Shown: piece by piece, positions 18,755 to 37,058 of the stretch
How the letters are laid out: each line of letters opens with the position of its first letter
How positions within the stretch are numbered: the first letter of the stretch is position 1
Assembly (NCBI GenBank): GCA_016219005.1
Contig: JACRCN010000087.1
Coordinates: 33,488 to 97,487 of the forward strand
Direction: 5' to 3'
From: Deltaproteobacteria bacterium
GTDB taxonomy: Bacteria > Desulfobacterota > Desulfobacteria > Desulfobacterales > SpSt-501
DNA length: 64,000 nt
Notes under the pieces: model-generated
Database searches by the model: none
What the model was told of the DNA's origin: nothing
The model's input: only the letters and a program-made list of their open reading frames with translations
Program-made: the position numbers and the translations under genes

Positions 18755-21187
18755 TCAAACCCCATGCTCGGCGCGCGATAATATTTCCTGCTGAATGTCT
18801 TTGCTCAATAGCACGAAGTAGTCGGAGTACCCGGCCACGCGGATCAGCAGGTTGCGGTGCTCCTCCGGCCGGTCCATGGCATCCAGCAGGATCTTCCGGT
18901 CGACGATGTTGAACTGCATGTGGAAGCCCCCCTGGGCAAAGTAGGTCCGGATGAGAGCGGCGAGCTTCTGCAGGTCACGGTCGCTCTTCACCGTCTGGGG
19001 GCTGATCTTGATGTTGAGCAGGGTTCCGTTGGTCCGGGCGTGGTCCAACTTGGACACCGAGCGCGTGGAGGCGGTGGGGCCCTTGCGGTCATGGCCCTGA
19101 ACCGGGCTCACCCCCTCGGACAGCCAGGCCCGGGCATGCCGGCCGTCCGGCGTCGCGCCGGTCGCTTCGCCGAGCGAGATGTGGCTCGTGGTGGGCAGCA
19201 GGTCCACCCAATATCTGGCGCCCTGGGTGTCGGAATGGCGTTCCACGGCCGAGCAGAAGATGTCCTGCACCCGCACGGCGAGCTCGTCCGCATACTCGTC
19301 GTCGTTTCCGTAGTGCGGGGTCTTGTTGACCAGCGTCAGGCGCAGGGCCTCCTGCCCCTCCCAGTTGCGGTCAAGCGCGTCAATCAGCTCGGGCATGCCG
19401 ACGGAGCGGTTGTCGAAAACGTGCTTGCGGATGCCGGAAAGCGCGTCGGCCACCGTGCCGACCGCAACCCCGCTCATCGTGGCGATCTTGTAGTGCGACC
19501 CGCCGGCGTGCCAGTCGACGGCCGCGGCGATGCAGTCGTCGACCACGGCCGAGGTGAACGGCACCGGGCAGTAGCGGGCATAAATATCGCGCACGGTGTT
19601 GTCGTAGCGGACCTTCAGCGCCACGAAGTGTTCGACCTGGGCCTCGAAAGCTGCGAGCACCTCATCGAAGCCGGCGAAGGCCCTGGGGTCGCCGGTCTGC
19701 GGCCCCAGGGGCTCGCCCGTCAAACGGTCGACCCCGTTGTTGAGGGCCAGTTCGAGAGCCTTGGCCAGGTTGAAGTAACCGGTGGAGGCCATGCGGTCCT
19801 TGCCGTCGCAGAACACGGCCACACAGCCGTTCAGGCTGCTCGCGCGCGCGTCGCTCAACGTCTTGCCGCGGTTGACCATGCCCAGCACCATGACGTCGGA
19901 GTTGAACATGGCCGGCATGCCGGTGCCCCGCCGCAGGACCTCGCAGCAGCGCATCAAAAATCTGGGCGGCGTGAGCGATGCGATCTGGGCCGAAAGCCCG
20001 GGCTGGGGCAGCAACGTGCGCTCCAAGGCCTCCAGGCACATGAAGGACACCTCGTTCACGGCGTCGCGGCCCTGGCGGGTGAGCCCGCCGATGTTCAGGT
20101 TCTGGAACTCGGGGTAGGAGCTCGAGGTCTGGACTTCGCCCGAGTCCTTGGCCAGGGTGATTTCGTCGAGCTTGACCCACAACAGGTCGAGCAATTCCTG
20201 GGCTTGCGCCTGGGTGATCTCGCCCGAATCGATGCTGTGGCGGTAGTAGGGATAGATGTACTGGTCGAAGCGGCCCGGCCCGAAGGCGTGGCCGTCGGTC
20301 TCGAGGTTGAGCATCAACTGCGTGATCCAAAAGGACTGCAACGCCTCCTGGAAGGTGACCGCCGGCTTGGCCGGAACCCGGTCCAGGATGGCGGCGGTCG
20401 CCAACAGCTCGGAGCGGCGAACGGGGTCGGACTGCAGAACGGCCAGGTGCCGCGCCTCGGCGGCGTAGCGGCCGGCTAAAAGCACCGCGGCCTCGCAGGC
20501 CATGATCACCGACTGCAGGAACTGGCGCTTGTGCACGCAATCCCGGTCGTGGGTGCCGAGCCGGGCCAGGGATTGCTCCACCTGGGCGACGATGCCCTCC
20601 ACGCCATGGGTGAGCACCTTCGCGTAGCCGGCGTTGATGTGGCCGATGGTGCGGGAGCGGAAGTAGTTGTAGATCAGGCCACACTCGTCGGCCCGCCAGA
20701 TGTCGGCCGGCACGGCTTCCATGATCCGGTCGCCGATCTGCCGGCCCTTCCAGTAGGGAAACACCTCCGCCCGCAGGATCTGCTTGGTTGGTTCGCTCAC
20801 ATGGAAAGGTGTGCTGCTGCGGGTGGCCAGCCGGTCGAGGTCGCGCTCCACCCAGTCGCAGCTGACCTCGGGGAACACGGGTGAGCCGCGCGGGGTCAGG
20901 GCCTTCATGCCGACGATGAGCTCGCCCTCCTGGATCTTCACCGGGTGCTCGGTCACGATGCGCAGGAGCATCCGGCCCCGGCGGGTGGTGAGCGGCTGCC
21001 CCTCGGTCTCCCGGTAGCTGCGCGTCACGGAAACGGCCCGCTCCGGGTGCAGCTCGGGCGGAGTCTTGCGGTTGCGTTCGATCCCTTGCTGCACACGGGC
21101 GCTGGGCCCGGTCTGGCCGACGCCCGATTTCCCGGTCGCAGCTTCGATGGGGATCGGCCTGTGGGTTTCAAGACGGACCGTCGTCAT
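18755..21187 (-). CDS. Glycyl radical enzyme, PFL2-like, non-canonical active site
   Basis: Oxygen-sensitive radical enzyme of 810 aa. The C-terminal glycyl radical motif IRVAGYSDYF gives radical site Gly786. The catalytic loop is LNGCVAVF with thiyl Cys455. Substrate-barrel motifs resembling glycerol dehydratase and choline lyase are present: NLETDGHAFGPGRFDQYIYP and LELALNNGVDRLTGE. In those eliminating lyases the loop reads GCVE, and the glutamate two residues after the cysteine is the general base. Here it is Ala457, so a standard water or amine elimination is doubtful. No radical-SAM activase is in the window, so activation must come from elsewhere. AGGAGG precedes the ATG. It follows its FadR-type regulator by 30 bases. 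Substrate unknown. Confidence 0.9.
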   Translation of the reverse strand: MTTVRLETHRPIPIEAATGKSGVGQTGPSARVQQGIERNRKTPPELHPERAVSVTRSYRETEGQPLTTRRGRMLLRIVTEHPVKIQEGELIVGMKALTPRGSPVFPEVSCDWVERDLDRLATRSSTPFHVSEPTKQILRAEVFPYWKGRQIGDRIMEAVPADIWRADECGLIYNYFRSRTIGHINAGYAKVLTHGVEGIVAQVEQSLARLGTHDRDCVHKRQFLQSVIMACEAAVLLAGRYAAEARHLAVLQSDPVRRSELLATAAILDRVPAKPAVTFQEALQSFWITQLMLNLETDGHAFGPGRFDQYIYPYYRHSIDSGEITQAQAQELLDLLWVKLDEITLAKDSGEVQTSSSYPEFQNLNIGGLTRQGRDAVNEVSFMCLEALERTLLPQPGLSAQIASLTPPRFLMRCCEVLRRGTGMPAMFNSDVMVLGMVNRGKTLSDARASSLNGCVAVFCDGKDRMASTGYFNLAKALELALNNGVDRLTGEPLGPQTGDPRAFAGFDEVLAAFEAQVEHFVALKVRYDNTVRDIYARYCPVPFTSAVVDDCIAAAVDWHAGGSHYKIATMSGVAVGTVADALSGIRKHVFDNRSVGMPELIDALDRNWEGQEALRLTLVNKTPHYGNDDEYADELAVRVQDIFCSAVERHSDTQGARYWVDLLPTTSHISLGEATGATPDGRHARAWLSEGVSPVQGHDRKGPTASTRSVSKLDHARTNGTLLNIKISPQTVKSDRDLQKLAALIRTYFAQGGFHMQFNIVDRKILLDAMDRPEEHRNLLIRVAGYSDYFVLLSKDIQQEILSRAEHGV

Positions 21188-21217: not shown

Positions 21218-21994
21218 CTATGATGATGGTGCGCGATGCTTGACCGGCGCGCGGACCGCGGACCGCGCCCTGCCCCCGGCGGCCGATCTCTGCTGCATGA
21301 CCGTGGTGGCACGATGCACATGCCCCCGGGCGAGACTTTCGGCGCGCTCCGCATCACCCCGGGACACCGCCGTGACGATCTCTTTCAATTCCGCGAGAGT
21401 GGTCTGAATCGTTTCCTCATCCCGGGGCAAATACGCGCTGATGTGGTAACGATGGAAATTGCTGTGCACGGTTTCCAGAAAAAAATGGTGCAGGGGATTT
21501 CCGGCGATGCGCGCGAGAGCCAGGTGTATTTCCCTGTCCACCTGCATGAACTCATCCCATTTCGCAGCACCCGATTGAGCCAGATCCGCCGCCTGTTTCA
21601 GCAGCCGCTTGAGCTCGCCCATGTTTTTGGAGCCGGCCCGCAGGGCCGCCCGGCGGGTCAGCAACCCCTCGAGGTCCTGCCGGAACTCCGAAATCTCCTC
21701 CATCGTGATGCGCCGGGATCGAACGAAAAGCCCAAGGCTTTCGATCATGGAATCGGCGTTGATCTCCTTGACGAAGATTCCGCCGCGGTGGCCCTTGCGG
21801 ATCTCCACCAACCCCTTCTGCTCCAGCACCCGCAGGGATTCCCGCAGCGTGTTGCGGCTGACGTCCATCAGCACCTGCAGTTCGCGCTCGGAGGGCAGTC
21901 GATCGCCGGCGGAAAGGCGGCCTTGGAGGATGGCGGCCTCCATCTGATGGATGACGCTCTCGAAGGCGCGCACTTGTCGCACTTTAGTGAACAT
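21218..21994 (-). CDS. FadR/GntR-family regulator of the glycyl radical enzyme
   Basis: Transcription factor of 258 aa. An N-terminal GntR winged helix (residues about 8-75) has LSAGDRLPSERELQ and VSRNTLRESLRVLEQKGLVEIRKG. A C-terminal FCD effector domain (about 100-235) follows, with metal/effector-type positions around FRQDLEGLL and REIHLALARIAGNP. The start is placed at MFTKVRQ, 32 codons after the track start, because a strong promoter with a palindromic operator covers the longer start, which would lie upstream of the transcription start. The ATG has only a weak ribosome site. It is co-transcribed with the enzyme gene 30 bases downstream and is likely an autoregulated, inducer-released repressor. 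Confidence 0.88.
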   Translation of the reverse strand: MFTKVRQVRAFESVIHQMEAAILQGRLSAGDRLPSERELQVLMDVSRNTLRESLRVLEQKGLVEIRKGHRGGIFVKEINADSMIESLGLFVRSRRITMEEISEFRQDLEGLLTRRAALRAGSKNMGELKRLLKQAADLAQSGAAKWDEFMQVDREIHLALARIAGNPLHHFFLETVHSNFHRYHISAYLPRDEETIQTTLAELKEIVTAVSRGDAERAESLARGHVHRATTVMQQRSAAGGRARSAVRAPVKHRAPSS

Positions 21995-22077
21995 GGAAGG
22001 GGCCGGGTGTTCCGTCTTGGACGGTGGGTGTTGGCCGGGCTCCTGATGACCCAAACACCAGGTTGCCTGAAAAATCA

Positions 22078-22090
22078 ATGGTTCAACCAT
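22078..22090. promoter_or_regulatory. FadR-type operator, perfect palindrome
   Basis: ATGGTTCAACCAT is a perfect 13-base palindrome and contains TGGT-NNN-ACCA, the FadR-subfamily consensus core. It overlaps the -10 element of the regulator's own promoter, a classic repression geometry. A further half-site GGTTGAAC occurs at 22127-22134. Confidence 0.75.
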
Positions 22091-25254: not shown

Positions 25255-25776
25255 TCACTTTTTGAATATCACGGGCTTCGGCTCATAGTCCCCGGAAGCG
25301 ACCTGCTCCCAGAAGGTCTTTTCATTTTCCATCCATCTTGAGCCGAATCTGCTGTTGAAAAAACTGCCGAGCTTATTGAACATATGCATCAGACTGGATC
25401 GGTGCTCCAGGGATAGGACATCTTCCAGGAACTCGGTGATTTCCGACATTTTTTCCTTCGGAATGTAAGCACGAGCGCCCATCTCAATCGATTTTTTAAG
25501 GTAATCGGCGGACAGGGCATGGGCGGTGAGCATGATGGTCGGAAACCCCAAGTGGACCGCGGCATTAAGGAGATCGAATCCTCGCACACCCATGATGTCA
25601 AGAATAACGGCATCGTATGTCCAGGAGCGGAGCAGGTGAAAACCGGTCTCATAGTCCGTCGCCCGGTCCAGAATCAGCCCGGCGTGTTCCGTCAGAATAT
25701 CCTGCAGGGTATCGAGGACATCGGGTTCGTCGTCTACGGCCAGCAAGCGCTTGCCGCTTAAAATGCTGTCGGTCAT
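25255..25776 (-). CDS. Single-domain response regulator with aromatic C-terminal tail
   Basis: Cytosolic receiver protein of 173 aa. RLLAVDDEPDVLDTLQDIL gives the acidic pocket, VILDIMGV gives phospho-acceptor Asp60, and AYIPKEK gives the switch lysine. There is no DNA-binding or enzymatic output domain. The last 50 residues contain KLGSFFNSRFGSRW followed by FW, which is also found in the paralogue at 33120-33677. The start at MTDSILSG has AAAGGAG ten bases upstream. It is the last gene of the liv/acyl-CoA-ligase operon, 41 bases after the ligase stop. No kinase is adjacent; the kinases at 33746-36615 are the nearest candidates. Confidence 0.88.
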   Translation of the reverse strand: MTDSILSGKRLLAVDDEPDVLDTLQDILTEHAGLILDRATDYETGFHLLRSWTYDAVILDIMGVRGFDLLNAAVHLGFPTIMLTAHALSADYLKKSIEMGARAYIPKEKMSEITEFLEDVLSLEHRSSLMHMFNKLGSFFNSRFGSRWMENEKTFWEQVASGDYEPKPVIFKK

Positions 25777-25817: not shown

Positions 25818-27509
25818 TCAATTTTTGGCTTCTTCATGACGCGCCCCCTTTTCCCCCTTCGAAATCCGCCTGCGTTCATCGTCACGGATCTCGCGCCGGA
25901 GCAGTTTGCCGACTTTTGATTTCGGAAGCATGTCCCTGAATTCGATGTAAGCCGGAACCTTATAGGGCGCCAGACGGTCCCGACACCACTTGATCAATTC
26001 GGTACCGCCCACACCGCGAGCATCCTCCTTCAAGACGACTATGGCTTTGATCCGCTCCCCCACCTTGGGATCCGGAACACCCACCACGCACGCACCGATC
26101 ACCGTTGGGTTGTCCTGGAGGGTGGCCTCCACTTCGGAGGCAGACACGCGGTACCCTTTGTGCTTGATGATGTCGGCGGACCTTTCGACATAAATCAGCT
26201 CACCCGTCGGTTTTGCACTGACGAAGTCCCCCATGCGGCACCACGTTTTTCCGTTGAGCTCGATAAATGCCTTGCGGGTTTCCTCGGGCTTTTGATAGTA
26301 CTCTTTTATCGTGAAAGGGGAAGTGACCAGAAGCTCTCCGCTCTGGTCCCCGACCACCGGTTCGAGGGTCTCTGGCTCCACAATCAGGCATTCCCGGCTT
26401 TTCAAGGGAAAGCCTATGGCCCTTGGACTGGGCTCTACGCCGATCTTGCTGTAGGCCACATGCCCCACTTCAGTGGAGCCGTAAACCTGGTAGATGGGGA
26501 TGCCGCAGCGCTCCCGCCACCGTTTCTTTACTTCCTCGGGGAGAACATCTCCACCACAGAAACAAAATTTCAGCGAACTCAGATCGTAGCGCTCGAGCCG
26601 GTCGTGTTCGAGTATCATCCGGTAAAGCGTCGGAACGCCAAGCATCCACCGAACACGGTTTCGTGCGATCGTCGCCAGAATTGCGTCTACCTGGGGGACC
26701 GGCATCAGCATAACGGTGTTGCCCTTGTTCAAGCCGACGGCCATGAACAGGCCCAACGCCATGATATGAAACAGCGGATTGATGGCAATATAGGTGTCTG
26801 CGCCTTCCATGAGATGATCGCCGCCCACGTCTTCGGTGACGTCGTTCACGTAGGAGGTCATGCCGATGTGCGTGCCCTGCACGCCCTTGGGGAACCCGGT
26901 GGTGCCGCCGGTGTAGAGAATGTAGGACAAATCCTTCCACGGATCAATCGCCGTCTTTCCCGCCAAGGGCGGGTGAGCCAACATCGATCGGAAGGAAATG
27001 ACCCGGTCGTTCTTTTCGATCTTTCCGGAAGGGATCTTGTCGAAAAGCACGCCCAGATATTTTTTCCAAGGAGGGAGAAGATCCGCCATGTTTGTCACAA
27101 TCACCCGTTTAAGGCCGGTTTTGGCGGATGCTTCTTTGACGTAGCAATAATTGGTGTCCATGCAGATGGCTGTTTCGACACCGGAGTTCTCGACCATATA
27201 GGCGATTTCGTGGGAGGTATATATCGGAGATACCGGCACGACCACGGCGCCGACCTTCTGGATGCCCAAAAAAGCGATGACCCACTGGATGGAGTTGGCG
27301 ATGTAAATCATCACCCGATCGCCCTTGCCGACGCCCAAGCCGGCCAAGGCACCGGCAAAACGCTCGCTCAATTCCTTCAGGCGGCGATATGAGAAGCGTT
27401 CCCCGAGATAGAAAATGGCGGTTTGGTCCGGATACCGCTCGCTCATCCTGTCGAACCGTGTGAACGTCAGTTCACTTTCGAGTGCATCGCCGTGGGCAGG
27501 CATCTCCAA
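25818..27509 (-). CDS. Acyl-CoA ligase (AMP-forming), FadD/aryl-CoA ligase type
   Basis: Activates a carboxylic acid to its CoA thioester via an acyl-adenylate. The 563-aa chain has P-loop YILYTGGTTGFPKGV (about residue 190), the A5-type motif YQVYGSTEVGH, A8 GELIYVERSADIIKHKGYRVSASEVE and the C-terminal catalytic lysine in LPKSKVGKLLRREI. It is of fatty/aromatic-acid length. The start is TTG with AAGGAG five bases upstream; an ATG two codons later is an alternative. It follows livF by 51 bases in the same operon, so the acid imported by the Liv system is probably its substrate. Medium-chain, branched or aromatic acids are all possible. Confidence 0.9.
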   Translation of the reverse strand: MEMPAHGDALESELTFTRFDRMSERYPDQTAIFYLGERFSYRRLKELSERFAGALAGLGVGKGDRVMIYIANSIQWVIAFLGIQKVGAVVVPVSPIYTSHEIAYMVENSGVETAICMDTNYCYVKEASAKTGLKRVIVTNMADLLPPWKKYLGVLFDKIPSGKIEKNDRVISFRSMLAHPPLAGKTAIDPWKDLSYILYTGGTTGFPKGVQGTHIGMTSYVNDVTEDVGGDHLMEGADTYIAINPLFHIMALGLFMAVGLNKGNTVMLMPVPQVDAILATIARNRVRWMLGVPTLYRMILEHDRLERYDLSSLKFCFCGGDVLPEEVKKRWRERCGIPIYQVYGSTEVGHVAYSKIGVEPSPRAIGFPLKSRECLIVEPETLEPVVGDQSGELLVTSPFTIKEYYQKPEETRKAFIELNGKTWCRMGDFVSAKPTGELIYVERSADIIKHKGYRVSASEVEATLQDNPTVIGACVVGVPDPKVGERIKAIVVLKEDARGVGGTELIKWCRDRLAPYKVPAYIEFRDMLPKSKVGKLLRREIRDDERRRISKGEKGARHEEAKN

Positions 27510-27560: not shown

Positions 27561-28307
27561 TTAAATCCCGAAATAGGCTGAACGCACATCCGGGTTGTTC
27601 ATCAGCTCTTCCCGTGTGCCCTCCAGAACGGCTGAGCCGTTTTCCAGAATGAAGGCGTAGTTTATGATAGGAATGACCGGCCGCGCGTACTGTTCGGTAA
27701 TGATGATGGAGATTTTTCGCTCATCCCGGATTTCCCGCGTGGCATGCATCAGCATGGCCTGCATCAATGGGCTAAGGCCCAGCAAAGGCTCATCAAGGAG
27801 AAGTATTTTCGGCTGCGCCATAAGCGCCCGGCCAATGGCCAGCATCTGCTGCTCGCCGCCGCTCAAAAAGCCGCCCAGCCGGCTTTTGAGCTTTGTGAGG
27901 GCTGGAAAAACCTTGAATACATATTCCAGGGTTTCCTGCGCCTGGGCGGCCGTTGCCAGGTAACCCCCAATTTTCAGGTTTTCCAGGACGCTGCATTCCT
28001 TGAAGATACGGCGGCGCTCCGGACAAAGGACTATTCCAAGCCGTGCCCGGCGGCTGGATTTCGAGGCCATGATCTCCTGGTCCCGGTATCGGATGCTGCC
28101 GGTGAGGGTGATGCGCTCCCCTCCGGCCATTTCTTCCTTTTTGCGGATATCGAGCATGATGCCGGACAGCGCATACATAAGCGTGGACTTGCCGGCGCTG
28201 TTAGCACCAAACACCCCGACAATCTGGTTTTCACCGCATCGGATGCTCACATTGTTGAGGGCCAGCATGTTTTCGTAAAACACCATGAGACCGGTCGCCT
28301 CAAGCAT
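27561..28307 (-). CDS. livF: Branched-chain-type ABC importer ATPase LivF
   Basis: ATP-binding subunit of 248 aa. Walker A is GANSAGKST (with Ser in place of the usual Gly-Ala at that spot), signature is FLSGGEQQMLAIGRAL, Walker B is ILLLDEPLLGLSP, and the H-loop position is occupied by threonine-glutamate in IIITEQYARP, with no histidine visible. LivF proteins typically lack that histidine (…EQN), so this fits the subfamily. Compared with E. coli LivF there is an insertion of about ten residues after the Walker A helix (IRKKEEMAGGERITL). Its ATG overlaps the livG stop by 8 bases. It pairs with LivG to energise the LivHM channel. Confidence 0.9.
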   Translation of the reverse strand: MLEATGLMVFYENMLALNNVSIRCGENQIVGVFGANSAGKSTLMYALSGIMLDIRKKEEMAGGERITLTGSIRYRDQEIMASKSSRRARLGIVLCPERRRIFKECSVLENLKIGGYLATAAQAQETLEYVFKVFPALTKLKSRLGGFLSGGEQQMLAIGRALMAQPKILLLDEPLLGLSPLMQAMLMHATREIRDERKISIIITEQYARPVIPIINYAFILENGSAVLEGTREELMNNPDVRSAYFGI

Positions 28308-29088
28308 GGCGCATCACCTCCTCGACCTTCTCCGAGCCGAAATAGGCTTCTCGGACCCGAGGGTCGGCCATCACCTCCGCGGCGGATCCCTCGACCAGTT
28401 TCTCACCAAAATTCAGCACCAGAACCCGGTCGGCAACCTTGAAAAGCTCCCGAAGGCGGTGTTCAATCATGATCAACGTGATGCCGCTCATCTGGAGCCG
28501 TTCGATCAAGGGCACCATGCTTGCGATTTCGCTCATGCTCAAGCCGGAGAAAACCTCATCGCAGATGATCAGCTCGGGTTTGAGCGCCAGGCAGCGGGCC
28601 AACTCCAGTCGCTTGAGATAGCCGGTCGGAAGGGTCGACGTCACCTTGAAGGGCACGTAGGAGTCCCGCTCGAAACCGATTTCCTCCAGGATATCGATGC
28701 CGACGGTGTTCCGGTCGCCGCGCCGGCCGCCGCCGCGCCAGCCGCCGGTGCGCCTGGCCCGGGGGGAAAAGAGCGGGATCACCAGATTCTTGTAGGCGGG
28801 CAAGCTGAAATAGGGGCGCATGATCTGGAAAGTCCGCGTCAGTCCCATATCGGCAATTTTGTGGGGAGGTTTTCCGGTGATGTTCTTGCCCCGGAACAGG
28901 ATGCGGCCGGAAGAAGGCTTAACAAAACCAGTGATGCAGTTGACGGTGGTTGTTTTTCCGGACCCGTTTGGACCGATGATGCCCAGAATTTCCCCCTCGC
29001 CGACCTCAAAACTTACCCGGTTGAGCGCGATGATGCCGCCGAAGGTTTTGGTTATCTCCTGGATTTGCAGGATCGGCCCCTCCTTCAT
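28300..29088 (-). CDS. livG: Branched-chain-type ABC importer ATPase LivG
   Basis: ATP-binding subunit of 262 aa. Walker A is GPNGSGKTT; the region normally holding LSGGQ reads LPTGYLKRLELARCLA, an altered signature; Walker B is ELIICDEVFSGLS, with Val where Pro is usual; the H-loop is MIEHRLREL. A Gly/Arg-rich stretch (ARRTGGWRGGGRRGDR) replaces the usual linker near residue 125. The start at MKEGPIL is chosen because it overlaps the livM stop (ATGA) and has the correct family start; 99 further residues in the track are a shadow of livM. The altered signature motif is unusual but compatible with an active heterodimer in which LivF supplies the good one. Confidence 0.88.
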   Translation of the reverse strand: MKEGPILQIQEITKTFGGIIALNRVSFEVGEGEILGIIGPNGSGKTTTVNCITGFVKPSSGRILFRGKNITGKPPHKIADMGLTRTFQIMRPYFSLPAYKNLVIPLFSPRARRTGGWRGGGRRGDRNTVGIDILEEIGFERDSYVPFKVTSTLPTGYLKRLELARCLALKPELIICDEVFSGLSMSEIASMVPLIERLQMSGITLIMIEHRLRELFKVADRVLVLNFGEKLVEGSAAEVMADPRVREAYFGSEKVEEVMRHA

Positions 29089-30104
29089 ATCTTTTTCCAC
29101 CTTTCGATCTGGTGATATTTCCGTTGGCCATACACCATCAGCCCCTCGCTGCGAAAGACAACGAAGGCCAGCAGGATGAGGGAATAAAAGACGATTCGAA
29201 GCGTGCCGAAATCCCGTAGCAACTCCGACACGGGGACCAGAATGAGGCAGCCGATCACCGGGCCCACCAGGGTCCCGCTGCCGCCGATGACGGTCGCGGC
29301 AATGGGCAGCACTGAAAAGTCGAGGGCAAATGTGGAGATCCCTGCCCACATGTAAATGTGCACCAGGCTGGCTCCGGCAAAACAACCGATGGCCGAAGCG
29401 ATGAACACGGCGAGCGCCTTGTAGGAGGTGATGTTCATTCCAGAGGCCCGCACCGCCTGATCGTTGTCCTTCACGGCGCGCAGCACCAACCCGAGGTCGG
29501 TATTGACCAGTCTGCGCATGCCGAAAAGGAACAGCAACAGCATGCCAATGATGAAATATTGCTCCATCCAGGCGCTCGGTAAGCTATCGATGCCCATGAT
29601 CCCGTCGGTTCCGCCCAGGATATCAAGCGCCTCAATGGCCCGGGCCATGAACAGAGGATACATCAACGTGACAATGGCAAAGTACACGCCACGCAGAGGC
29701 AGGCACGGCAACAGCAGCAGGGTGCAAACGATGCCGCCGATAAGTGTGGCGACGGCTATTGAAAGCAGAGCGGCAAAGCCAAATACGCTGTTTAGGACGG
29801 CCGACAAGTACCCGCCGACCCCCACAAAGAAAGCTCCGCCGAGTGAGACCAAGCCCACCTGGTGCGCCAAGAAGTCGAAACTCAGCGCCAGAAGGGCGTA
29901 TATGCATACGATCGAAATCACCCGCTGCCAGTACATGTCCGGAATCATCAGTGGCGCAACCAGCAGGCCAACGATGATGACGAACCGCGGCATGATCAGG
30001 TACACAAGTTCTCTCCAGGACATCAACGCGTAAATCCCTTCCGTCCTGACTTTGATGCCCCGATCGATCCTTTCTTTGCGACGCTGGTGCGTTCCCGTGG
30101 TCAA
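29085..30104 (-). CDS. livM: Branched-chain-type ABC importer permease LivM
   Basis: Inner-membrane permease of 339 aa with about nine hydrophobic segments. LivM signatures are LLALSFDFLAHQVGLVSLGG, RGVYFAIVTL, GGTDGIMGI, LVLRAVKDNDQAVRASGMN and TVIGGSGTLVGPVIG. I place the start at a TTG that overlaps the livH stop (TTGA) with GGAGGA seven bases upstream. An internal ATG (MSWREL, start 30023) has a poorer site and would drop 27 hydrophilic residues. The track start is 57 codons further up inside livH. Pairs with LivH to form the channel. Confidence 0.88.
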   Translation of the reverse strand: MTTGTHQRRKERIDRGIKVRTEGIYALMSWRELVYLIMPRFVIIVGLLVAPLMIPDMYWQRVISIVCIYALLALSFDFLAHQVGLVSLGGAFFVGVGGYLSAVLNSVFGFAALLSIAVATLIGGIVCTLLLLPCLPLRGVYFAIVTLMYPLFMARAIEALDILGGTDGIMGIDSLPSAWMEQYFIIGMLLLFLFGMRRLVNTDLGLVLRAVKDNDQAVRASGMNITSYKALAVFIASAIGCFAGASLVHIYMWAGISTFALDFSVLPIAATVIGGSGTLVGPVIGCLILVPVSELLRDFGTLRIVFYSLILLAFVVFRSEGLMVYGQRKYHQIERWKKI

Positions 30105-30967
30105 ACGCGCTCCTCCAGTTCCTTCTGCTGGCCGAAAATGCCGGACGGCTTGAAGATGAGTGTCAGAATGATGGCCAGCAGGGCAACGACCATCTGATAA
30201 TGCGACCCCAGATAGACGGCTGTCAGTATCTGTGCAAAACCGATGATAAAAGCAGCCAGAACCGCGCCGGCCCAACTGCCAAGCCCGCCGACGATGCAGA
30301 CGGCGATGGCCAAAATCAGCACATTGTAGCCGGATTCCACCACAATGTTCCCCAGCGGCAGAAGCAACATGGCGCTGAGAGCCGCCAGCGAAGACCCGAG
30401 ACCCATGGCCACAACCGCCATGACATCCGAATCAATCCCCAGCATGAGCGCCGCCCGCTCGTCCTGAGCCATACCCCTCAAAGCCAGGCCGATGCGGGTT
30501 TTGTGTGTAAACAGCCACAAGAAAGCCACCAGAGCCGCCCCGACGCCTACCGTCAGAAGCCGTTGGTAGTCGACCGAGATTCCGCCGATGGCCGCACTGC
30601 CCTCGATGAACGGCGGCAGGGTGTAAGTCATGCCTTTGAATCCGCCCCATCTCAGTCCCTCAAGAATGGCCAGTGCAATTGCATAGGTGGCGATGATTTC
30701 CGAAATCTCCATGCCCCTGATACGTATCAGAAAAAACTGGTAGATGACGGAACCGACAATGGCCGTGACGGCAATGGCCAAAAGGATGCTGAGCAGGTAG
30801 TTGATCCCCAGTATGTTCAGGGCGCTCCAGGCAACGAACCCGCTGAGCACGTACAGTGCGCCGTGGGCAAAATTGGGCAGGCGGCTGATGCCGTACACCA
30901 AGGCGAAACCCAGTGCATAAAGGGCCAGCGCCACACTGTTGATCGTACCGTAGATGATTATATCCAT
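30101..30967 (-). CDS. livH: Branched-chain-type ABC importer permease LivH
   Basis: Inner-membrane permease of 288 aa, eight or so membrane segments. Family features are NSVALALYALGFALVYGIS, LPNFAHGALYVLSGF, RGMAQDERAALMLGID (the cytoplasmic coupling loop) and GLGSWAGAVLAAFIIG. It lies 102 bases after livK and overlaps livM at its stop. The ribosome site is modest (CCGGA immediately before the ATG). Liv-type systems carry branched amino acids, but close relatives in anaerobes import aromatic and other carboxylic acids; the operon's CoA ligase favours the latter. Confidence 0.92.
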   Translation of the reverse strand: MDIIIYGTINSVALALYALGFALVYGISRLPNFAHGALYVLSGFVAWSALNILGINYLLSILLAIAVTAIVGSVIYQFFLIRIRGMEISEIIATYAIALAILEGLRWGGFKGMTYTLPPFIEGSAAIGGISVDYQRLLTVGVGAALVAFLWLFTHKTRIGLALRGMAQDERAALMLGIDSDVMAVVAMGLGSSLAALSAMLLLPLGNIVVESGYNVLILAIAVCIVGGLGSWAGAVLAAFIIGFAQILTAVYLGSHYQMVVALLAIILTLIFKPSGIFGQQKELEERV

Positions 30968-31069: not shown

Positions 31070-32341
31070 TTATTTTTTCATCCAGGGCGGCAGCAGAATT
31101 TCTCCCATGGCAATACTCTTGGGGTATACCACGATCCGTTTGCCGTCCTGCCATTGCAGGATGCTGCCGACAGCACCCTCTTTGGGATCGGTTGAAGGAA
31201 TGATCTGGTGGCTCTTGGGATCGAACCTGACTCTGCCGTATACTCCCACGATATCGGTTTTTTCTAGGGCATCCACAATCTTGCTGGAGTCGAGACTTCC
31301 GGCGCGCAGGATGGCGTCCTTCAAAACATAAACGGCCATATAGCTGCTGGATGTTCCCAGGCCTTCCGGTTCGACCCCCCACCGCTTGGTGTAGGCGTTG
31401 TAGAACTTCATCGTCCATGGAGTGGCGTTGGAAGGGGCATTGCCGGCATTGACCACGTTGCAGAGAGTGAATTCACCCTTGCCGTTGGTTGCTTTCCAGA
31501 AGCCGGGCTGCTCGGCGGCAGCAAGGGTGGAGCCAAAAGGAAGCGCTGGTATTTTCATGTCGTGCCACTGCTTGAGAAGTATGGCGCTTTCGGGCATGTC
31601 CATCCAGATGTTGATTATTTCCGCTTTTGTATCTTTGGCCTTCAGCAGCCCCATTGAAAAATCGGTTGCGCCGGTGGGGTAAATTTCCAGGCCGGTAACA
31701 TTCCATCCCTTTTTGGTAGCGATATCTTTGACGAGTTCGGCCGCGCCGCGGGCGTGGCTGACGTCCTGGGCGACAATGAATAGATTCTTAAACCCGTGCT
31801 TTTCTTTCAGTTCGGTAAAATTGGCGAAAATTTCACCGACCAGGTTCTTGGCTTCACCGTGGATACGGAAGCAGTACTTGAATTTGTCATACTGTTCGGC
31901 CACCAGGTCGGTGTATTTCGGGGTCAGCGCTCCGGTGGTCAGGATGGATACTTTTTTATATTTTGAAAGCAGCGGCATGGCCGCCAGAGCCGCTTCGGAG
32001 CGGACCGGCCCGCCAATAATGAAATCCGCTTTTTTATCCAGGATCAGCTTTTCCATGGCAAGCAGCGCTTCGCTCACCGGCACCCCGGGCTCGAGATCCC
32101 GGGTGTCGATGACTTCTATTTTGAACGGCCGCTTTTCTCCGCCGATCGCCACACCGCCATCGGCATTGATTTCTTCAACCGCGAGGGTAATGCCTCGCTC
32201 GGCGTCCCAGCCGTATAGGAAGGCCATCGAAAGCGGGCATCCAATGACGATCGGTTTTGCGGCTCGAGCGGCTGGTACAAACAGGAGCGACAATCCAATC
32301 AAGAAGAGAAATGTTGAGATCGCACGATGCCGGAGACTCAT
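31070..32341 (-). CDS. livK: Liv-type ABC substrate-binding protein
   Basis: Periplasmic binding protein of 423 aa (peripla_BP_6 type). A Sec signal peptide ends at PAARA (residues 1-27), and the mature chain starts AKPIVIGCPLSMAFLYGWDAERGITLAVEEINADGG. Two Rossmann-like lobes follow, with DFIIGGPVRSEAALAA and FIVAQDVSHARGAAELV. The start at MSLRHRA has AAGGAGGTG seven bases upstream; the 51 extra residues in the track lie in the leader. It is longer than LivJ/LivK of E. coli (about 367), as is common for binding proteins of aromatic or larger acids. First gene of the operon livK-H-M-G-F-ligase-RR. Ligand unknown. Confidence 0.9.
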   Translation of the reverse strand: MSLRHRAISTFLFLIGLSLLFVPAARAAKPIVIGCPLSMAFLYGWDAERGITLAVEEINADGGVAIGGEKRPFKIEVIDTRDLEPGVPVSEALLAMEKLILDKKADFIIGGPVRSEAALAAMPLLSKYKKVSILTTGALTPKYTDLVAEQYDKFKYCFRIHGEAKNLVGEIFANFTELKEKHGFKNLFIVAQDVSHARGAAELVKDIATKKGWNVTGLEIYPTGATDFSMGLLKAKDTKAEIINIWMDMPESAILLKQWHDMKIPALPFGSTLAAAEQPGFWKATNGKGEFTLCNVVNAGNAPSNATPWTMKFYNAYTKRWGVEPEGLGTSSSYMAVYVLKDAILRAGSLDSSKIVDALEKTDIVGVYGRVRFDPKSHQIIPSTDPKEGAVGSILQWQDGKRIVVYPKSIAMGEILLPPWMKK

Positions 32342-32509
32342 ACTGCACCTCCTTTTCCATTGGAACAACTGGGGTTGGCTATCCGGACATGCACCCGTTC
32401 TCACCGGATTTAAATGCAAAATGGCGGTTATTGGAACAAGAAATTCAATCGAGTTTTTTTGTGGTGTTTTCAGCAATTGCATCGCATGGAACAAAATGAA
32501 TGGTGTTTT

Positions 32510-33119: not shown

Positions 33120-33677
33120 TCATATGCCCTTGTCCAGGATCCTGGGATCGTGCTTGAGCCGTTCCTGGATGCCCTTGCCGATCTGGTAGGTGCGGCTGAA
33201 TTCCGACCAGAATTCCTGGTCCTTCGCCTTCCAATCCGGGCCGAAGCGCTTATCGAAATAGTCGCCCAGCTTCTCGAACAAAAGCTTCCAGGGAGGCTCA
33301 TCCCGCTCGAAGCATCCCAGCAGATTGTTCAACAGCACATCCAACTCGGCCAACGTCTCTTTGGGCAGATAGGAGATGGCGCCCTTGCGAATGGAGTCCA
33401 TGAGCGTTTCGGGGCTGATGGCATGCGCGGTCAGCATGACGGTCGGGATGCCCCGGGCGACGGCCTCCTCGAGGAGCTGCAATCCATTGACACCCATAAT
33501 GTCCAGGATGGCGAGGTCGTAGCGCTTCTCCTTTATTTTCCGGGAAGCGGTCGCATAATCGCGTGCCCCATCGACGCGGGCATCTTCCAGAATCTCTGCG
33601 ATCGTATCGAGGATGTCCTCCTCGTCGTCGACGGCCAGGATGTGCTTGCCCTTGATGTAGGATAGTGGAACTGTCAT
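33120..33677 (-). CDS. Single-domain response regulator with aromatic C-terminal tail (paralogue)
   Basis: Cytosolic receiver protein of 185 aa, paralogue of the one at 25255-25776. HILAVDDEEDILDTIAEIL gives the acidic pocket, LAILDIMGV gives Asp59, and SYLPKET the switch lysine. The tail KLGDYFDKRFGPDW followed by FW matches the other protein position by position, and about 20 further residues follow. No output domain is recognised. AGGAGG precedes the ATG. It is the last gene of the ACT-kinase-kinase-regulator operon, 68 bases after the small kinase, so it is the likely phosphate acceptor of those kinases. Confidence 0.9.
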   Translation of the reverse strand: MTVPLSYIKGKHILAVDDEEDILDTIAEILEDARVDGARDYATASRKIKEKRYDLAILDIMGVNGLQLLEEAVARGIPTVMLTAHAISPETLMDSIRKGAISYLPKETLAELDVLLNNLLGCFERDEPPWKLLFEKLGDYFDKRFGPDWKAKDQEFWSEFSRTYQIGKGIQERLKHDPRILDKGI

Positions 33678-33745: not shown

Positions 33746-34549
33746 TTAGGCCGCTTTCAACTGCAGGGGCAACGTCAGGCAGAACGTCGCACCCGCCCCC
33801 TTGCGGCTGGTGACGTGGATATCCCCCCCCAAAGATCGGGCCAGAATGAGAGCCCCGGCAAGCCCCAGCCCGTGTCCTTTGCGCTCGACGAACGCACACT
33901 CCGCAATCTGGGTGTAGCGTCTGAAGATGAGGTCGTGATGGTCCGGCGCGATCCCCGGGCCGTCGTCTTTGACCGCCAGCACGAACCGGTCGGCCTCAAC
34001 AGCCATCTGCACGTCCATGCGCTGTTTGCGATGATGCAGCGCGTTCTTGAACAGATTGCCGGCGATCTGGCGGAATTTGGTTTCATCCTGGAACATCTCC
34101 GCGGCCGCCGCGGCGGCGGGGGTGTCAACGAAGATGCCGTGGCTGATCAGCAGCTTGGTGAGTTCATCTTCGATCTGGTACTTGCCGATCGCCTCCGATG
34201 CCGGCCCGGTCATCGTCTCCAGAGCATCCTTGAGCGCCTGACGCACGGACGTTAGCGGAGAGAAGCGGGAGCAGGCCAGACACCCGGCCTCCGACCGGCC
34301 GATCTCCAGCAAGTCGTGCAGGAGCCCCCGGGCTTTGCGCGTGTTGCGCAGGCTGCGCATCAGCGTGTTGGCCTGCTTGGTGCTCAGCGGCCCGTATTGA
34401 TCCTGCTTCTCCAGCACCGTGCGCAGCCCGGTTTCGATGATCGCGATGGGGTCCTTGAGCTCGTGAATAAGGAACTCGATGCTGATTTCATGGAAAAACC
34501 GGGCCGGCGACACGCCCGTTCCCGGCGTTGTGTCTTTTTCACGCACCAT
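33746..34549 (-). CDS. Small soluble histidine kinase with CxxC linker
   Basis: Kinase of 267 aa with no membrane segment and no sensor domain. The dimerisation helix has IEFLIHELKDPIAI (His29), so nearly the whole protein is kinase core. Between the DHp and ATPase domains lies EAGCLACSRFSP, a CxxC motif. The ATPase domain has N box NLFKNAL, G1 KDDGPGIAP and G2 GHGLGLAGALILARS. Because it lacks its own sensor it may form heterodimers with the larger kinase encoded 35 bases upstream, or sense redox state or a metal through the CxxC. It is followed by the response regulator at 33120. The start has GGAGG about 10 bases upstream. Confidence 0.85.
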   Translation of the reverse strand: MVREKDTTPGTGVSPARFFHEISIEFLIHELKDPIAIIETGLRTVLEKQDQYGPLSTKQANTLMRSLRNTRKARGLLHDLLEIGRSEAGCLACSRFSPLTSVRQALKDALETMTGPASEAIGKYQIEDELTKLLISHGIFVDTPAAAAAAEMFQDETKFRQIAGNLFKNALHHRKQRMDVQMAVEADRFVLAVKDDGPGIAPDHHDLIFRRYTQIAECAFVERKGHGLGLAGALILARSLGGDIHVTSRKGAGATFCLTLPLQLKAA

Positions 34550-34584: not shown

Positions 34585-36615
34585 TTATGCAGCTTCCTTC
34601 ACCCCGGCCGTCGCCGGCCGGAACTGCACCGTGACCGTGGTGCCGCCCGTATCACGGCATTCATCCGCGTTGCGCAACTGCCCGCATTCGCTGGCGTCCC
34701 CCGGGCACTCCTCTTTCTCGGCAGGAAGGAAGCGGCAGCGCGTGGACTCCATTCGGATCTTGAACCCGTAGCGCTCGGCAAAGATCTGCATGCGCAGGAG
34801 GTCAAAGCCTTTTCCACCCGCCTTGAAATCATAGGGACTGCGGGTGGAATACTGCAACGGCTCATACGCCGTGAAGAAATTACCTAAAATCAACTGTTGG
34901 TTTTCTGCGGTGATTCCGATTCCGGTGTCCCGAATCTCGAGTTCCGGTCCGGCCTTCCCGGCTCGAACGGTCACCCGCACCTCGCCGCCGTCCGGCGTAT
35001 TTTCAACCGCGTTGCGGAGCAATCCCACGATGACCTTGCCCAGGACCTCCGCGGGGATGACGATAGACTCGGTCTCCGCCGGGTTGAACTCCACGGCGAC
35101 CCGGCGGTGCGCAAATTCGGGGCGCAGGATATTGAGGGTCTCGTCCGCGTACCGGGCCAGGTTGATTTTCTCCGATTTTGAATCCCGCGGCCCGAAAATC
35201 CAGTCGATTCTGCGGCGCAGTCTTTCGGTGGCGCTTTCTTCTCCGAATTCGTCGGCCGCCAGCGCCTCCAGTTCATCGGCGCACTGATCCAGCAGGACCG
35301 ACAGCATGCGATGGGGGGCCTCCTCCTTCTCCTGCAGCATATCCTCGATCTTGTACTGCATGTCCAGGATGCGCTGGAGATTGCGCTGGGCGCGGTCCAG
35401 TGTCTTTCCCCAGCGACGGTCGTCGTTCAGCTTGGCGAGCGGCTTGGCCAGAAGGTTCAGGGAGGCGGAGAGCACCGAAAGCGGTGTCTTGAGTTCATGG
35501 GACAGGTGATGGATCACACGATCCTTGGCGCGGTTGAGGCGGTTCACCTCCTGGAAGGAGCGCTCGAGCGCCTCCAGGATGCTGGCGTTCTCGATGGGCA
35601 GGGCCACGAGATTGGCCAGAGTGCTCAGCAGCGCTGTGTCGGCCTCGGTGAACGGCCCGCCCTTTTTGTTCACGGCGCACAGCACGCCGATCATGCGCTT
35701 CTGAGTCACCAGGGGCACGTCCAGCATGCTGCGCGTCCGGTGCCTGGCCTTTTCATCGACCTGGGCAAAAAAGAACGGACTCTGCGAGGTATCGTTGACC
35801 ATCAACGGCTTGCCGGTTCGAACCACCTCGCCTGCCACTCCCTTGTCGGACGGGAAACGGATCTCCTTCATCCGCTGGCCGGTGTCGATGTTATCGAAAA
35901 CGGCCTCGCGGAAGAAGAACTCTTTGTTTTCATCGTCCAGAAGGATGACCATCGCGCCCTCGACGTCCAGCAGCTGCCGGACCTCCCGGGTGATGAACTC
36001 CAGCCGTACATCCAGGGTCCGAAACTGATACAAGGCCTGGGCAATCCGAAACAGGGCCTGGTTGATGCGGGCGGTGCGCTTGTCCTGGGTCACATCCCGC
36101 AGGGTGATGACCTGGCCGGCCGGTTGGTTGTCTTCATCGTAAAAAATGGCGCCGTCGATGATGATGTCGAGCAGCCGGCCGTCTTTGGTCAAACGCTTGG
36201 TCTCGAAATTGTGAATGATCTTCTCCCGGTAGAGCCGGCTCAGCCCCTCGCGGGTCTGGGATTTGTACTCTTCCGGGACAAACGGGATGATTTTACCCTG
36301 CAGTTCCTCCAGCGTCCAGCCGAAGACGCTTTCAAAAGCGGGGTTCAGATAGGAGACTGTGCTGTCCAGGTTGAAGACGAAGACCGGATCCGGCAGGAAA
36401 TTGAGGAAGGCGCGGTAGCGCCGTTCCGCCCGGCGGCTGGTCTCGGAGAGCTCCAGGGCACACTCTTGAGATTCTCTCGGCGCGCGCTGGTTCAGATGTC
36501 TGCCGGCAGCTTTCTTTGCCGGATGGGCGGCAGAGCTTACAGCCGTCGGCGGAGGCCTGGAAGACGAAACCGCTTTTTTGTTTTTTCCGTAAACCATTGC
36601 GGCGCCTTCGGGCAT
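34585..36615 (-). CDS. PAS-GAF histidine kinase with four-Cys insert in ATPase domain
   Basis: Cytosolic sensor kinase of 676 aa. A basic, disordered N-terminus (1-50) precedes a PAS domain (about 68-180; FLNFLPDPVFVFNLDS, ITLRDVTQDK), a GAF domain (about 195-360; FPSDKGVAGEVVRTGKP, IGVLCAVNK), HisKA with IHHLSHELKTPLSV and a HATPase domain (NAVENTPDGGE, RDTGIGI). The G2 box is degenerate (AGGKGFDLLR instead of GLGL). Just after it four cysteines with spacing C-x9-C-x6-C-x8-C (residues 627-653) interrupt the domain before the final GGTTVTVQF strand. The ATG overlaps the ACT gene's TGA by one base; a TTG one codon earlier is possible. It is co-transcribed with the ACT protein, the small kinase and the regulator. 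Confidence 0.88.
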   Translation of the reverse strand: MPEGAAMVYGKNKKAVSSSRPPPTAVSSAAHPAKKAAGRHLNQRAPRESQECALELSETSRRAERRYRAFLNFLPDPVFVFNLDSTVSYLNPAFESVFGWTLEELQGKIIPFVPEEYKSQTREGLSRLYREKIIHNFETKRLTKDGRLLDIIIDGAIFYDEDNQPAGQVITLRDVTQDKRTARINQALFRIAQALYQFRTLDVRLEFITREVRQLLDVEGAMVILLDDENKEFFFREAVFDNIDTGQRMKEIRFPSDKGVAGEVVRTGKPLMVNDTSQSPFFFAQVDEKARHRTRSMLDVPLVTQKRMIGVLCAVNKKGGPFTEADTALLSTLANLVALPIENASILEALERSFQEVNRLNRAKDRVIHHLSHELKTPLSVLSASLNLLAKPLAKLNDDRRWGKTLDRAQRNLQRILDMQYKIEDMLQEKEEAPHRMLSVLLDQCADELEALAADEFGEESATERLRRRIDWIFGPRDSKSEKINLARYADETLNILRPEFAHRRVAVEFNPAETESIVIPAEVLGKVIVGLLRNAVENTPDGGEVRVTVRAGKAGPELEIRDTGIGITAENQQLILGNFFTAYEPLQYSTRSPYDFKAGGKGFDLLRMQIFAERYGFKIRMESTRCRFLPAEKEECPGDASECGQLRNADECRDTGGTTVTVQFRPATAGVKEAA

Positions 36616-37058
36616 CAATGTTCGGTCTCGAGAATCCCGAAATTATCGGCATCCAGCAGCTTCATCCCGTTGGCCTGGAGCACCTCGATCGCCTTGTCGT
36701 TGTCGCCGAAGCGGAAAATCATGACCGCGTTGCCCGAAGAAAAGTGGATATGGGCATACATGAACACGACATTGACGTTGGCCTCGGTGAGAGGCTTCAG
36801 CAGCCGGGCCAGGCTGCCGGGCTTGTCCTCGATTTCAACGGCCACAACATCATTCACGAACGCGGGGATGTGAAGCTCCATGAGGACGCGCCGCGCCTTG
36901 GCTACATCCGACACCAGAAGACGCAGTTGTCCGAACGCCCCCGTATCCACCAGGTTGAGGGCTCTCAGGTTGATCCCTGCCTTGCCCAGGGCTTCGGTCA
37001 CTTCATAAAGTCGCCCCGGTGCGTTTTCGATGGACACCACAATCTGTTTTAACTTCAT
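36615..37058 (-). CDS. Tandem ACT-domain protein
   Basis: Small soluble protein of 147 aa made of two ACT domains. The first starts LKQIVVSIENAPGRLYEVTEAL with GINLRALNL; the second has VAVEIEDKPGSLARLLKPL and NVVFMYAHIHF. ACT pairs bind amino acids or similar small molecules at their interface. Proteins of this form are often encoded beside phenylacetate-CoA ligases in anaerobes, but no such ligase is here. Instead it heads an operon with two kinases and a regulator, which suggests a ligand-binding sensor input. AAGGAG lies nine bases before the ATG, and a good promoter lies about 100 bases upstream. Confidence 0.87.
   Translation of the reverse strand: MKLKQIVVSIENAPGRLYEVTEALGKAGINLRALNLVDTGAFGQLRLLVSDVAKARRVLMELHIPAFVNDVVAVEIEDKPGSLARLLKPLTEANVNVVFMYAHIHFSSGNAVMIFRFGDNDKAIEVLQANGMKLLDADNFGILETEH

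Follow-up and report, generated by a model that had tools for sequence, protein, structure and literature searches.

The window (the whole stretch of 64,000 nucleotides analysed here) encodes two response regulators, P0001 and P0002, which belong to an undescribed family of receivers ending in a conserved, tryptophan-rich aromatic tail. Both are response regulators by fold and chemistry. The tail, absent from Pfam, NCBIfam and PDB as searched, is probably the part that relays the signal to a partner protein. Examination of open-licence papers revealed no description of this family.

Two tailed regulators and their operons

The two regulators displayed the following organization:

25255..25776 (-): P0001 (173 aa), receiver at residues ~8-122 followed by the aromatic tail; closes the Liv/CoA-ligase operon
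25579..25599 (-): short beta3-alpha3 loop DIMGVRG of P0001, D60-G66, including phosphosite D60
25303..25407 (-): aromatic tail module of P0001, residues 124-158
25258..25302 (-): clade-specific C-terminal tip of P0001, region ASGDYEPKPVIFKK
33120..33677 (-): P0002 (185 aa), paralogous tailed receiver; closes the ACT-HKp-HKs operon
33483..33503 (-): short loop DIMGVNG of P0002, D59-G65
33198..33296 (-): aromatic tail module of P0002, residues 128-160
33123..33185 (-): clade-specific tip of P0002, region GKGIQERLKHDPRILDKGI

The original prediction had linked both proteins through a common phosphosite and a common tail, and both likenesses were recovered. The string ILDIMGV is present in each of them, BLASTP aligned 157 aa of them, tail included, at 43% identity (E 2e-42), and the tails alone (KLGSFFNSRFGSRWMENEKTFW in P0001, KLGDYFDKRFGPDWKAKDQEFW in P0002) reached a Smith-Waterman score of 77, against a mean of 23 and a maximum of 50 among 10,000 shuffles. 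A purine-rich, ribosome-site-like sequence precedes both genes. No recognised output domain was found in either protein: Response_reg (PF00072) was the only Pfam domain above cut-off (46.1 and 47.8 bits, curated cut-off 30.2) and ended at residue 108-115, while NCBIfam matches stayed far under cut-off and covered the receiver part only. Beyond the receiver extend some 45-60 residues, comprising the conserved helical aromatic module and the tip.

The genes accompanying them are:

25818..27509 (-): acyl-CoA ligase (AMP-binding), directly upstream of P0001
27561..32494 (-): Liv-type ABC importer genes, whole block
27561-28307 (-): LivF
within 28300-29385 (-): LivG
within 29085-30275 (-): LivM
30101-30967 (-): LivH
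31070-32494 (-): solute-binding protein
33746..34549 (-): HKs, short histidine kinase (HisKA-HATPase, H-box HELKDPI) without recognised sensor domain
34585..36618 (-): HKp, PAS-GAF-HisKA-HATPase sensor kinase
34612..34989 (-): C-terminal part of the HKp ATPase domain, with AGGKGxDL and a four-cysteine motif
36615..37058 (-): ACT domain pair protein, overlapping the start of the HKp ORF by 4 bases

As had been proposed, P0001 closes an operon composed of the solute-binding protein, LivHMGF and CoA-ligase genes, about 41 bases after the ligase gene. The paralogues were also said to lie in different operons. This is correct as to the number of operons, but these form neighbouring clusters rather than distant ones: the ACT-HKp-HKs-P0002 operon lies just upstream of the Liv operon, with a gap of 626 bases between P0002 and the gene of the solute-binding protein, so that the paralogues bracket the transporter and ligase genes. 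The ACT pair protein may be a ligand sensor supplying an amino-acid or metabolite signal. Its gene was kept upstream of HKp in about 19 loci.

Extent of the family

Conservation of the tail was not restricted to these two proteins, since profile searches recovered 134 non-redundant relatives. Members were defined as non-redundant ORFs scoring above 100 bits in the collected loci; all other ORFs scored 62 bits or less, and this gap makes the family sharply bounded. A profile built from the two sequences picked up close relatives from public genomes and, at the threshold applied, was positive in 28 of the 40 kin genomes, 25 times strongly. At the level of the phylum, 39 genomes out of 297 had tailed regulators. 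Within the range of the searches, all 134 relatives belong to Desulfobacterota-type genomes; among 26 genomes reached via loci outside the family, a single one (G337, a Deltaproteobacteria record) was positive. The family is expanded in sulfate reducers and syntrophs, reaching 11 copies in one genome, and its genes often adjoin others for uptake or acyl-CoA activation.

Residues D15, D16, D60, T84 and K107 were conserved at 100% in the 134-member alignment. With the acidic pair, D60, T84 and K107 all kept, members are phosphorylation-competent by residue content. A tail match was obtained for 130 members. Two of the remaining ones (L223 and L127) are ORFs cut by contig ends and another (L214) is frame-shifted, its tail sitting in a different frame where the tail search picked it up, which leaves L165 as the sole intact member without tail. 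Some of the long open frames around members turned out to be stop-to-stop artefacts of GC-rich DNA (e.g. L095).

The position of the tail was checked by a tail-only search of the 40 genomes, which led to the C-termini of these receivers save for two weak strays, one with internal stops (G026:C3) and one at E 0.02 (G038:C223). With these as the only extra matches in the 40 genomes, a mobile module carried by other proteins was discarded as an explanation of the tail.

A short loop that accompanies the tail

All 134 members displayed DIMG[VI]xG at the phosphosite. The corresponding beta3-alpha3 loop is two residues shorter than in Thermotoga DrrD (DIMLPVHDG) and lacks the usual proline. Searched as a DNA pattern in the 40 genomes, this motif gave 59 matches and its reversed control none. 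Tailed receivers accounted for 56 of these 59 matches, and 56 of the 57 clear tail matches in the same genomes carried the motif. Short loop and tail hence hardly ever occur apart, and the family is recognisable from a motif of seven residues. The three other matches proved unrelated and were named from sequence as an ABC ATPase and two transglutaminase-like proteins.

Aromatic module and clade-specific tip

The tail is composed of two parts, an aromatic module common to all clades and a C-terminal tip proper to each clade. In a tail profile of 64 sequences (P0001 numbering), W148 was invariant and L136, F140 and F144 nearly so; over the full set, conservation was 98% for W148, 95% for F140, 92% for F144, 89% for L136, 87% for W156 and 85% for W129. 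The AlphaFold2 model of P0001, computed with 33 relatives, had a mean pLDDT of 91.9 and a pTM of 0.87, and placed tail helices at 125-144 and 153-161 with block means mostly of 90-92. The P0002 model was poorer in the tail (block means ~68-77), with an ill-defined tip (41-51).

Comparisons with known folds concerned the receiver. Foldseek matched PDB receivers, and alignments continuing past the receiver into an output domain usually had an rmsd of at least 10 A. The tail as part of a known domain was set aside, as Pfam and NCBIfam offered no match, and the tail profile drew only short, non-significant matches from PDB, such as FFDEKYGPNW of a dynein light chain (E 0.1). A membrane-binding helix was not favoured either: the mean net charge of the tail is about zero and mean hydrophobicity is negative in its most amphipathic 18-residue windows.

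In the P0002 clade (35 sequences), the tip reads GKGIQERLxxDxxIxxKGI or close variants, with nearly always identical spacing. At least one copy of the P0002 type (L027) comes from a culturable relative, Desulfosarcina alkanivorans PL12. Mean information was 3.45 for the aromatic module, 3.16 for the tip and 3.45 for the receiver, the whole tail being about as conserved as the receiver itself. The P0001 clade (10 sequences) displayed GxYxPxPVI[LF]KK or a close variant instead. Both clades were supported in the tree, with bootstrap values not fully settled. A relationship was observed between tip and gene context: members of the P0002 clade occurred with ACT, HKp and HKs genes wherever the contig was long enough (L145, L019 and L034 are among the exceptions), and those of the P0001 clade had Liv genes and/or a CoA ligase upstream. 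That tips follow operon type is the best evidence for partner-specific parts in the tail, yet it is a correlation.

Associated kinases and other neighbours

Of 94 loci, 43 had an HKs-like kinase close to a tailed regulator and 31 an HKp-like one, counting neighbours down to ~30% identity, so that some may reflect general kinase similarity. Among 23 HKs homologues, the phospho-acceptor histidine and the N- and G-box residues were invariant. The G2 box of HKp is modified to AGGKGxDL (AGGKGFDLLRM in the window copy) and is followed by four cysteines (RC, CPGx4C and a C before GG[TS]) that were invariant in 24 homologues. PDB matches stopped short of this region and NCBIfam models matched at a weak kinase level at most. 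The cysteines possibly form a metal, Fe-S or redox site inside the kinase catalytic domain.

Co-occurrence was nearly perfect. Among the 297 genomes, 39 contained tailed regulators, 38 contained HKp and 37 both (Fisher p 1.3e-43, 17 families, phylogeny uncorrected). HKs was present in 24 of the 25 regulator-bearing genomes among the 40 close kin and in none of the 15 others, the regulator-bearing genome without HKs being 65% complete. In some genomes (G063, G101), kinase and regulator genes lie apart. Regulators often outnumbered HKp, with 11 versus 5 in G221, 8 versus 2 in G031, 4 versus 1 in both G034 and G004, and 2 versus 1 here, which suggests that one kinase pair serves several regulators.

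CoA ligases were the commonest enzymes beside the remaining copies (8 of 93 proteins scanned). Other neighbours included ABC and TRAP transporters, UbiD, adenine deaminase, thiolase and CoA transferase as well as unrelated genes, and catabolism looks over-represented. In view of this diversity, extending in many relatives to other catabolic or unrelated genes, the ligase was rejected as universal target. Adenine deaminase-like genes lie beside tailed regulators at L151:12550-14325, L144:4401-6212 and L174:5788-7581.

Alternative architectures

Some members departed from the single-domain organization. In six of them (L123, L124, L126, L129, L164 and L210; the Pfam scan covered the first five), an HKs-like kinase is fused N-terminally to the tailed receiver, which keeps its tail. 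In four others (L028-L031, from three Desulfotignum and one other Desulfobacteraceae record), the fused domain is a universal stress protein (Usp) domain, as in L029:5581-6492, where Pfam was run and an ABC ATPase gene adjoins.

A further architecture was that of L165:9757-11016 (-), where a family receiver has the short loop but no tail and continues into a winged helix and a BTAD domain. Two tailed receivers and homologues of both HKp and HKs are encoded in the same operon. Since L165 is nested among tailed members in the tree, an output domain has probably taken the place of the tail, although this is a single case.

What the tail may do

The original prediction regarded the tail as an unrecognised output or docking element. 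In favour of this view, the tail is conserved far outside the two proteins, contrary to the condition named for refuting it; it comes after this receiver in all clear matches; it is foreign to the domain libraries and PDB searched; and a DNA-binding output takes its place in L165, as an output or docking element would lead one to expect. The short loop, the strict kinase association, the kinase fusions and the clade-specific tips come in addition to what that prediction contained. A tentative scheme, which we consider possible but somewhat short of probable, combines the receiver family, the kinase pair and a tail whose module and tip dock a partner. HKp, with its PAS-GAF sensor and four-cysteine ATPase domain, would sense a signal, perhaps together with the ACT protein, and phosphoryl groups would reach D60 of P0001 or D59 of P0002 via HKs. 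Phosphorylation would then alter the presentation of module and tip, and the tip would dock a partner specific to each copy, presumably in a phospho-dependent manner. For P0001, this partner would probably be encoded in the Liv/CoA-ligase operon or act on it; for P0002, it would probably be a component of the kinase module. The same kinase pair would phosphorylate several tailed regulators.

The near-perfect co-occurrence with HKp fits equally well a tail that serves for kinase recognition by docking HKp or HKs, the regulators then being phosphate carriers or sinks in the manner of Spo0F. HKp co-occurs nearly one-to-one with tailed regulators, and the aromatic module is common to all clades whatever their neighbours. 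Yet the tail is kept even where HKs is fused to the receiver, homologues of HKp and HKs share the operon of tail-less L165, and tips differ among clades that would share one kinase. The retention of the tail in HKs fusions, along with its loss in the sole member with another output, favours output over kinase docking, and we hold kinase recognition to be rather unlikely. A structural cap, stabilising a receiver weakened by the shortened loop and having no partner of its own, would account for the strict pairing of short loop and tail and agrees with the pTM of 0.87 obtained with the tail included. Weak couplings of the tail with beta5/alpha5 (I105-F140 and I113-L136) point the same way but were not significant, the analysis being too shallow at Neff 68. 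Such a cap appears improbable, as L165 has the short loop without tail and clade-specific tips are conserved. Tandem family genes in several genomes and the helical model of the aromatic tail would also suit dimerisation, in which two phosphorylated regulators would pair through their tails, tandem copies giving heterodimers; dimerisation alone does not explain why tips are clade-specific and follow operon type, and we rate it as quite improbable.

A broader extension of the preferred partner-docking scheme would see here a Desulfobacterota-specific hub. In it, one Cys-motif kinase pair would respond to redox or metabolite state by phosphorylating many tailed receivers, and each receiver, its gene lying with a catabolic operon, would control the proteins of that operon post-translationally through its own tip. 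Such a hub is unlikely as a whole; if true, it would represent a new kind of response-regulator output. The frequent uptake and acyl-CoA activation neighbours point to an unstudied layer of control in anaerobic carbon turnover.

Relation to known systems

The single-domain regulators CheY, Spo0F and DivK likewise display a receiver fold and a complete phosphorylation site without catalytic or DNA-binding output domain. The tailed family adds to this an aromatic tail with clade-specific tip, a loop shorter by two residues and a co-inherited kinase pair. No onward histidine phosphotransferase of the Spo0F type was recognised among the neighbours examined. The best PDB sequence matches were OmpR/PhoB-type receivers such as Thermotoga DrrD (1kgs, 3nnn), over the receiver part only; in contrast to DrrD, the tailed family has no winged helix, replaces DIMLPVHDG by DIMGVRG and ends in a tail without counterpart there. 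Foldseek also retrieved the similar receiver fold of RssB (6z4c, 7lcm). The RssB receiver works through protein contacts and is followed by a long signalling helix and then by an effector that does not bind DNA. Tailed members lack this effector domain and have a short tail of unrelated sequence. Hybrid histidine kinases resemble the relatives in which HKs and receiver are fused, except that the fused receiver keeps its tail and that the window encodes the two as separate genes.

Many response regulators lack an output domain, and usually no target is known for them. Here an output-like element can be diagnosed, the kinase pair is private to the family and the tips are specific to operons, which makes the question of what such regulators bind testable with a short peptide.

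Elsewhere in the window, a glycyl-radical enzyme of the pyruvate formate lyase family is encoded at 18755-21187 (-), and the gene of a GntR/FCD regulator (21218-22090) adjoins it.
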